From Blattabacterium cuenoti (GTDB lineage Bacteria > Bacteroidota > Bacteroidia > Flavobacteriales > Blattabacteriaceae): a stretch of DNA of 64,000 nucleotides. Made by a program: the position numbers and the translations under genes. Location: positions 489,234 to 553,233 of the forward strand of contig NZ_CP060245.1 of the NCBI RefSeq assembly GCF_014252455.1, given 5' to 3'. Within the stretch, counting starts at the first letter, position 1. Every line of letters begins with the position of its first letter. Below the pieces are notes generated by a model that ran no database searches, was not told the DNA's origin, and saw only the letters and a program-made list of their open reading frames with translations. Below, piece after piece: positions 13,374-16,184 of this stretch.

Positions 13374-16184
13374 ATGGAATATAATTTTAGAGAAATAGAA
13401 AAACGTTGGCAAAAATTTTGGAAAAATCATAATATTTTTTATACTAAAAAAAATATTAAATATCCAAAATATTATATTTTAAATATGTTTCCTTATCCTT
13501 CTGGTTCAGGTCTACATATAGGACATTGTTTAGGATATATAGCATCAGATATTTATGCACGATATAAACGTATAGAAGGTTATAATGTTTTAAATCCTAT
13601 AGGATTTGATTCTTTTGGTTTACCTGCTGAACAATATGCTATTCAAACAGGGAAACATCCATCTGATACTACTAAAAAAAATATAGAACAATATAAAAAA
13701 CAAATAAATAAATTAGGTCTTTCATTTGATTGGAGTCGTGAATTATGTACCAGTGATCCTAATTATTATCGTTGGACTCAATGGATGTTTATTCAAATTT
13801 TTCATTCTTGGTATGATAAAAATAGTGAAAAAGCTAAATCTATAAATATTTTAATTGAGGAATTTAATAAAAATGGAAATTTACTAATTAATGCTAGTAG
13901 TTCCTATCCTGATAAATTTAATTCCATTACATGGAAAAAATTTAGTCCTATAAAAAAAGAATCTATATTGTTAAATTATCGTTTGGCTTACTTAAGTAAA
14001 GAATATATTAATTGGTGTCCATATTTAGGAACTGTTTTAGCTAATGATGAAATACAAAATGAAAAGAGTAAAAGAGGTGGATATCCTATATATAAAAAAA
14101 AAATGTTACAATGGCATATAAGAATTAGTGCTTATGTTGAAAGACTTTTAAAAGGACTTAAATTAATTGAATGTTCTAAATCTTTAAAAGATATTCAATA
14201 TAATTGGATTGGTAAAATCAAAGGAGCTTCTATTTTTTTAGAACTTTTATATCCTTTGAAAAAAATAAAAAAAATAGAATTTTTTATTGATCGTCCAGAA
14301 ATGATATTTGGAATAAGTTTTGTGATTTTATCTATAGATCATAATTTTTCAAAAAAAATTACTATTTCTTCCTATAAAAAAAATGTTCAAAAATATTTTT
14401 ATCGAGAAACTAAAAAATTACAAAAAAAATCCACTATTTCTGGTGTTTTTACAGGGAATTATGTTTTACATCCATTTATTAAAAAAAAAATTCCTATTTA
14501 TATCAGTAACAATAATTTTTTTTCTATAGATAAAACAACTAATTCTTTTATTGGAATCCCTGGACATGAAAAATATAGCGAAAAATTTGCCAAAATTTTT
14601 AATTTAGAAATTATATCTGTTTCAATTCCTAATAATAAAAATAACCTTTGTGAAGGTCATAATGAAATATGTATTAATTCATATTTTTTAAATGGGTTAA
14701 ATTTTAAAGAAGCTAAAAATAAAGTTATTCAACTTTTAAAAAAAAAAAATATAGGTAGTCAAAAAAATAGTTATCGATTACGTGACGCTGTTTTTTCCAG
14801 ACAAAGATATTGGGGAGAACCAATTCCTGTTTTTTTTAAAAATAAAAAACCTCAAACAATCCCAATAGAAAAATTACCTATTTTTTTACCAAAAATTGAT
14901 AATTATTATCCAAAAAATGGAAAATCTCCATTATATCGAATAAAAAATTGGGCTTGGGATGAAAAAAATATGAAAATAGTTTCTAATAAACTTATAAATC
15001 ATAAATCTATATTTCCAATGGAAACTAATACTATGCCTAGTTGGGCTGGATCTAGTTGGTATTTTCTTCGTTATATGGATGTTAATAACAATCTATTTTT
15101 TTTAGATAAAAAAAAAGAAAATTATTGGAAAAATATAGATTTATATCTTGGTGGATCTGAACATTCTACAGGACATTTAATCTATGCTAGATTTTGGCAT
15201 AAATTTTTAAAAGATAGAGGATGGGTTACAACAGAAGAACCTTTTAAAAGGATATTAAATCAAGGAATGATTCTTAGTAATTCTGCCATTATATTAAAAA
15301 TAATAGGAAAAAAAATATTTGTATCTTATGAATTAAAAAAAAATTATAAAAATTTTTTATTTCAAGAAATATATGTCGATATTTCTTTAATTAATCATAA
15401 AAATCAATTAAATATCAATAAATTTAAACAATGGAGACCAGAATTTTCTAATGCAAAATTTCTTGTAAAAGAAAAAATTTTTTTTTGCAAAAGAAAATTA
15501 GAAAAAATGTCTAAATCTAAATATAATATTATAACTCCAGATTATATCCATAAAAAATATGGATCGGATATCTTTCGTCTTCATGAAATGTTTTTAGGTC
15601 CAATTACAAAAACTAAACATTGGGATGAAGAAAAAATTAATGGAATTAAAAAATTTTTAAATAAATTTTGGAGATTATTCTATGACCATGGAGTATTAAA
15701 AGTTAATGACCTTACTCCAACATTAGAAGAATTAAAAATTTTACATTATACTATTAAAAAATTAAAAGAAAAAATACAATTTTTTTCTTTTCATACATCT
15801 ATTAGTGATTTAATGATACTTGTTAATAAATTAACTATTTTAAAATGTAATAAAAAAAAAATATTAAAAAAATTGATAAAATTAATGGCACCATTTGCTC
15901 CTCATATATCAGAAGAACTTTGGAATAAATTAGGAGAAAAAAAATCCATTATATTTTCTAATATTCCTAATTTTAATAAAAAATATCTTATAAAAAAAAC
16001 TATAACATATCCAATAATGTTTAATGGAAAATTAAAATTTCAAGAAACATTTCAATCAAATTTAACAATAGAAAGTATAAAAAAGAAAATTTTAAAAAAA
16101 CCTAAAATTCAATTATATTTTAAAAAAAAAAATATTAAAAAAATTATTATTATTCCTAATAAAATAATTAATATTTTATTTTAA
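13374..16184 (+). CDS. leuS: leucyl-tRNA synthetase with a degraded editing pocket
   Basis: LeuRS charges tRNA-Leu with leucine. The 936-residue protein has the class I motifs HIGH (residues 48-51) and KMSKS (711-715), the tRNA-contacting C-terminal region, and the Bacteroidetes-type insertion before KMSKS, so aminoacylation should work. The CP1 editing domain (about 230-430) is unusual. The Thr-rich motif normally TTRPDT reads IDRPEM (305-310). The GTG of the second motif reads TTN (388-390). The AHDxRD segment reads GHEKYS (397-402), so the aspartate that holds the amino group (Asp345 in E. coli) is Ser. Loss of post-transfer editing is inferred. The gene follows a 130-base gap shared with divergent mgtE. 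Confidence 0.95.
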   Translation: MEYNFREIEKRWQKFWKNHNIFYTKKNIKYPKYYILNMFPYPSGSGLHIGHCLGYIASDIYARYKRIEGYNVLNPIGFDSFGLPAEQYAIQTGKHPSDTTKKNIEQYKKQINKLGLSFDWSRELCTSDPNYYRWTQWMFIQIFHSWYDKNSEKAKSINILIEEFNKNGNLLINASSSYPDKFNSITWKKFSPIKKESILLNYRLAYLSKEYINWCPYLGTVLANDEIQNEKSKRGGYPIYKKKMLQWHIRISAYVERLLKGLKLIECSKSLKDIQYNWIGKIKGASIFLELLYPLKKIKKIEFFIDRPEMIFGISFVILSIDHNFSKKITISSYKKNVQKYFYRETKKLQKKSTISGVFTGNYVLHPFIKKKIPIYISNNNFFSIDKTTNSFIGIPGHEKYSEKFAKIFNLEIISVSIPNNKNNLCEGHNEICINSYFLNGLNFKEAKNKVIQLLKKKNIGSQKNSYRLRDAVFSRQRYWGEPIPVFFKNKKPQTIPIEKLPIFLPKIDNYYPKNGKSPLYRIKNWAWDEKNMKIVSNKLINHKSIFPMETNTMPSWAGSSWYFLRYMDVNNNLFFLDKKKENYWKNIDLYLGGSEHSTGHLIYARFWHKFLKDRGWVTTEEPFKRILNQGMILSNSAIILKIIGKKIFVSYELKKNYKNFLFQEIYVDISLINHKNQLNINKFKQWRPEFSNAKFLVKEKIFFCKRKLEKMSKSKYNIITPDYIHKKYGSDIFRLHEMFLGPITKTKHWDEEKINGIKKFLNKFWRLFYDHGVLKVNDLTPTLEELKILHYTIKKLKEKIQFFSFHTSISDLMILVNKLTILKCNKKKILKKLIKLMAPFAPHISEELWNKLGEKKSIIFSNIPNFNKKYLIKKTITYPIMFNGKLKFQETFQSNLTIESIKKKILKKPKIQLYFKKKNIKKIIIIPNKIINILF

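Follow-up and report, generated by a model that had tools for sequence, protein, structure and literature searches.

The leucyl-tRNA synthetase (LeuRS) encoded by this Blattabacterium genome very probably charges tRNA-Leu while its post-transfer editing is dead, the CP1 (editing) domain surviving as a scaffold; this would be one of three such losses in the genus, with norvaline the likely intruder at leucine positions. The window, that is, the whole stretch of 64,000 nucleotides that was analysed, spans bases 489234-553233 of a single-contig genome of 608,467 bases (608 kb). In it, the leuS gene occupies positions 13374..16184 of the plus strand, as are all window features below, and forms an uninterrupted 936-codon open reading frame (936 aa). 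The best PDB matches of its product, found with phmmer, are the LeuRS of Thermus and E. coli. Orthologues were found in 68/68 genomes of the family, and identity to the LeuRS of 36 same-genus genomes is 62-73%. Alignment shows that the HIGH (residues 48-51, 13515..13526) and KMSKS (residues 711-715, 15504..15518) motifs are intact, in agreement with the first-pass annotation, and so are the leucine-pocket segments of the synthetic site. HIGH, KMSKS and a LeuRS-type core are thus all present, as in a bacterial LeuRS, and the enzyme would be expected to load tRNA-Leu normally.

The situation in the CP1 domain is different. In the CP1 pocket of LeuRS, Asp345 holds the alpha-amino group and T252 is the specificity gate (E. 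coli numbering, taken here from the phmmer alignment to solved LeuRS). In the Blattabacterium protein, IDRPEM (residues 305-310, 14286..14303) replaces TTRPDT (E. coli 247-252), turning T252 into Met; KTTN (14532..14543) replaces YGTG (E. coli 330-333), its last three residues being TTN (388-390, 14535..14543); and GHEKYS (residues 397-402, 14562..14579) replaces (A/G)HDxRD, placing S402 (codon AGC, 14577..14579) at the essential Asp345 position. The full set of changes reads T247I, T248D, D251E, T252M, Y330K, G331T, G333N, D342E, R344Y and D345S. Hence the features that mark an editing-competent LeuRS (Asp345, T252, TTRPDT and YGTG) are missing from the aligned Blattabacterium enzymes. The first-pass annotation had read the first and last of these replacements correctly and at the right place. 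It had also seen the replacement of GTG by TTN, but its claim that the threonine there is lost does not stand: the middle position remains Thr in this genome and in 26/43 sequences, and the altered residues are the glycines on either side of it and, before them, Tyr330.

Two alignments support this reading. Against solved LeuRS, phmmer paired FIDRPEM with Thermus FTTRPDT and GHEKYS with HDQRD, and the motif columns of a MAFFT alignment of 76 LeuRS agree with this pairing. An alignment shift that would restore the motifs, a way out named in the first-pass annotation, is ruled out, since both methods give identical columns. A sequencing error or a pseudogene is ruled out as well, because the frame is open and the loss is common to all 43 aligned Blattabacterium LeuRS. 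The damage is concentrated in the editing domain: of the positions conserved in intact relatives, Blattabacterium has lost 9/44 in CP1 versus 9/235 elsewhere (odds ratio 6.5, p = 0.0005). Mutations T252R, Y330D and those equivalent to D345 are standard ways to abolish editing in the E. coli enzyme, and Y330D abolishes both editing routes, tRNA-dependent pre-transfer editing included (PMC3834818). The D345A change alone makes E. coli LeuRS error-prone in vivo, with norvaline at 0.9-8.8% of leucine positions, negligible misincorporation of isoleucine, and valine rejected at binding (PMC4932531). Mischarged tRNA-Leu would then no longer be hydrolysed by a pocket without Asp345, the TTRPDT threonines, the T252 gate, Tyr330 and the YGTG glycines, although weak residual or pre-transfer editing may persist.

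An alignment with Flavobacteriales relatives and other strains of the symbiont, proposed as a check by the first-pass annotation, showed the motifs kept in the relatives and lost throughout the genus. The D345 column holds Ser in 37 and Cys in 6 of the 43 Blattabacterium LeuRS but Asp in 19/19 intact relatives, among them a 1.3 Mb member of the same family (G076) and two symbionts of 337-345 kb (G072/G073). As judged from these sequences, the proposed loss of the editing active site (43/43 against 19/19) is well supported. Thirteen order-level relatives and G076 keep the editing site, one of them (G046) with a GTG motif that is altered in part. Other family members range from a near-complete site (G090 and G074/G075) through a partly altered one (G088 and G089) to loss in Karelsulcia (G077/G078) and erasure in g24, a genus with genomes of 170-200 kb. 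A tree of LeuRS built without CP1 groups Blattabacterium, Karelsulcia, G088 and g24 with support 100, and places the intact G072/G073 as the sister of this group with support 98; for this reason, decay of LeuRS editing may have begun in the common ancestor of the four. Because G088 still carries Asp345, Blattabacterium and Karelsulcia may have lost this particular residue convergently, an uncertain point given the long branches. The site is thus lost in Blattabacterium genomes of 500-640 kb and kept in some relatives of ~340 kb. The loss is an old, genus-wide state and no peculiarity of this one organism, and would be at least as old as the common ancestor of every Blattabacterium sampled.

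LeuRS does not seem to be the only enzyme affected. Outside the window, the gene for ThrRS (L103:604-1854; G000:C1:183403-184653, minus strand) encodes 416 aa without the N-terminal editing half, and in alignment its product covers just residues 237-632 of the full-length G076 enzyme. In 49/49 Blattabacterium genomes the thrS model, 565 positions long, is matched by ThrRS only from about position 146-172 onwards, and each of these genomes (n=49) has one SAD domain, located in an AlaRS-length frame, while most related genera keep the ThrRS SAD. No second SAD domain was found in this genome, nor was an editing half found split off or frameshifted upstream, where the neighbour of thrS is an unrelated putative membrane channel. 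In the editing domain of the PheRS beta-subunit PheT (L146; G000:C1:582329-582838), 33/34 Blattabacterium have Gly where Thermus has Glu334, 10/10 relatives have Glu or Asp there, and Gly318 is mostly Asn in Blattabacterium. A published account calls Glu334 critical to the anchoring of Tyr-tRNA-Phe (PMC3275996). G020, G025, G033 and G036 give much lower scores for this domain. On the other hand, the motifs of IleRS (TTTPWT, GTGIVH..P), ValRS (TTRPET, PAHD..ND) and AlaRS (HxxxH, CxxxH) are intact in the genomes compared. At least two further loading enzymes of the genus, ThrRS and PheRS, therefore appear to have lost editing residues, the former with its editing half gone outright and the latter without Glu334 and neighbouring residues, and editing by IleRS, ValRS and AlaRS would be kept. 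Rescue of tRNA-Leu editing by another protein was also considered and rejected: neither a second LeuRS nor a free-standing CP1 was found. D-aminoacyl-tRNA deacylase (DTD, PF02580) was found in none of the 68 family genomes and in 8/14 control genomes.

The CP1 domain itself (residues 281-470, 14214..14783) retains its predicted fold. An AlphaFold2 model of the domain reached a pLDDT of 91.2 and a pTM of 0.86, and Foldseek matched it to many LeuRS editing domains, with a TM of 0.85 to Thermus LeuRS 1h3n; our structural reading rests on this model, the mediocre full-length one (pLDDT 77) having been set aside. The ratio of CP1 rate to that of the rest of the protein is 2.19 in Blattabacterium; the corresponding values are 1.27 for free-living relatives together with G076 and 1.25 for symbionts with an intact site, meaning that, relative to the rest of LeuRS, the domain evolves about 1.7 times faster in Blattabacterium than in intact relatives. 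In a control on the same five Blattabacterium genomes, this ratio was 2.33 for LeuRS, 1.17 for IleRS and 0.77 for ValRS. Across the 25 closest pairs, dN/dS was 0.17-0.67 in CP1 and 0.09-0.31 in the rest of LeuRS. Selection on CP1 is hence relaxed yet not neutral, with purifying selection persisting (dN/dS <1). The domain would persist as a folded scaffold, probably serving enzyme stability and tRNA binding.

One position does not obviously follow from a purely passive scaffold. Across the 43 sequences residue 402 is always Ser or Cys: Ser is inferred to have turned into Cys five times and never into Asn, Gly or Thr, and this in a genome of very high AT content. In the CP1 model a helix starts at residue 400, and our guess is that 402 has a structural role at the start of this helix. 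The restriction of this residue, the conservation of PExxFG and GIPGHExx(S/C) and the dN/dS below 1 in CP1 would also suit a rebuilt pocket, in which other residues, with Ser/Cys402 standing in for Asp345, still hydrolyse mischarged tRNA. We consider this very improbable: most species carry a bulky or charged residue (M, I, K, L, F, Y) at T252, and the positions T248, R249, T252, G331, T332 and R344 are free to vary, with entropy ranks of 122-155 out of 174, as is expected of an abandoned pocket. There is equally little to recommend the idea that CP1 is kept for a non-canonical purpose, with the Ser/Cys at Asp345 and the pattern PExxFG ... GIPGHExx[SC]xxF marking a remodelled pocket of altered chemistry or with a new ligand.

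Other alternatives accept the dead pocket and differ in its cause or consequence. The leuA pathway of leucine biosynthesis is the source of norvaline, and its loss could have made editing dispensable; indeed, leuA is missing in six congeners (G006, G012, G060, G035, G025 and G064). Nevertheless, 43/49 Blattabacterium, this genome included, have leuA, those aligned all being without the editing site, and the intact relatives G072/G073 keep the site without leuA. Given this distribution, we reject absence of leucine biosynthesis as the cause of the loss, and hold it to be the hardest of all the readings to credit. Throughout the family leuA is short (~400 aa; in this genome G000:C1:560040-561194) and covers just positions 1-385 of the 494 in the leuA model; the C-terminus, which probably holds the feedback domain, seems to be missing, and this shortening could influence norvaline levels. 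A more serious, if still doubtful, proposal is that editing was lost harmlessly, a more selective synthetic site allowing little mistranslation. It concerns the consequence and not the loss, and for that reason our confidence in it overlaps with that in the reading we prefer. Its precedent is human mitochondrial LeuRS (hmtLeuRS), in which a defunct editing site coexists with better discrimination at the synthetic site (PMC3834818). Core positions that are fixed in Blattabacterium and not in intact relatives (D37N, I138M, R642K, L734F and G754K) speak for it, although D37N and I138M also occur in Karelsulcia and are perhaps lineage markers. Moreover, the position of E. coli L570, which we take to be the one altered in hmtLeuRS, is still Leu in 42/43 Blattabacterium, and the parallel losses in ThrRS and PheRS suggest a general relaxation rather than compensation specific to LeuRS.

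We therefore retain the reading of a charging enzyme devoid of post-transfer editing, with errors that only the selectivity of the synthetic site and a scarcity of the wrong amino acids would keep in check. Loss of editing need not by itself entail mistranslation, hmtLeuRS being a case in point; Blattabacterium proteins nonetheless probably contain more errors than those of free-living bacteria. The first-pass annotation had expected isoleucine, valine or norvaline at leucine positions, and the E. coli D345A data (PMC4932531) favour norvaline and not the other two. The main error is likely to be norvaline, since E. coli LeuRS deprived of editing misincorporates it almost exclusively and leuA is present here. 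By the same logic Ser at Thr and Tyr at Phe would complete the predicted pattern, from which Val at Ile and Ser at Ala would be absent. The association of Blattabacterium with cockroaches is more than 200 million years old (PMC9603385). The genus, which would tolerate these errors, has apparently persisted with three of its six synthetase editing sites out of action and the other three kept, and offers a natural experiment on translational proofreading that is dated and densely sampled. Relatives with smaller genomes that keep LeuRS editing make the claim that genome reduction alone drives loss testable.

Editing-site degeneration in host-restricted bacteria has reportedly been surveyed by Melnikov et al. 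(2018, PNAS), a study known to us through reviews. With these bacteria Blattabacterium shares obligate symbiosis, a reduced genome, the loss of several editing sites and a kept synthetic site; as in their editing-defective LeuRS, the editing residues are gone, the synthetic site is intact, and the editing site is retained in relatives that are free-living or less reduced. What differs from that survey is that the Blattabacterium loss is mapped across genus and family, including smaller genomes in which the site is kept. Another degenerate editing site in a CP1 domain that is still present is that of hmtLeuRS, on which Lue and Kelley are said to have reported in 2005; the Blattabacterium enzyme is from a bacterial symbiont, and a compensating gain at the synthetic site, as in hmtLeuRS, would be conjectural for it. 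Editing by LeuRS, ThrRS and PheRS of Mycoplasma was reportedly treated by Li et al. (2011, PNAS). The comparison with Mycoplasma made by the first-pass annotation is apt, the same three synthetases being affected (PMC7373986, PMC4014445), but the LeuRS of M. mobile has no CP1 altogether, whereas that of Blattabacterium keeps it. Yeast mitochondrial ThrRS, also without an editing domain, is of independent, mitochondrial origin (PMC4267643). Several reviews present the loss of editing as a common feature of host-restricted bacteria (PMC10057733, PMC11020763, PMC11415595, PMC7373986), and Blattabacterium LeuRS is a well-documented instance of this known trend. According to one of these reviews, Mycoplasma genomes with two editing losses exist and none with three or more; in contrast, three editing sites look lost in one Blattabacterium genome.
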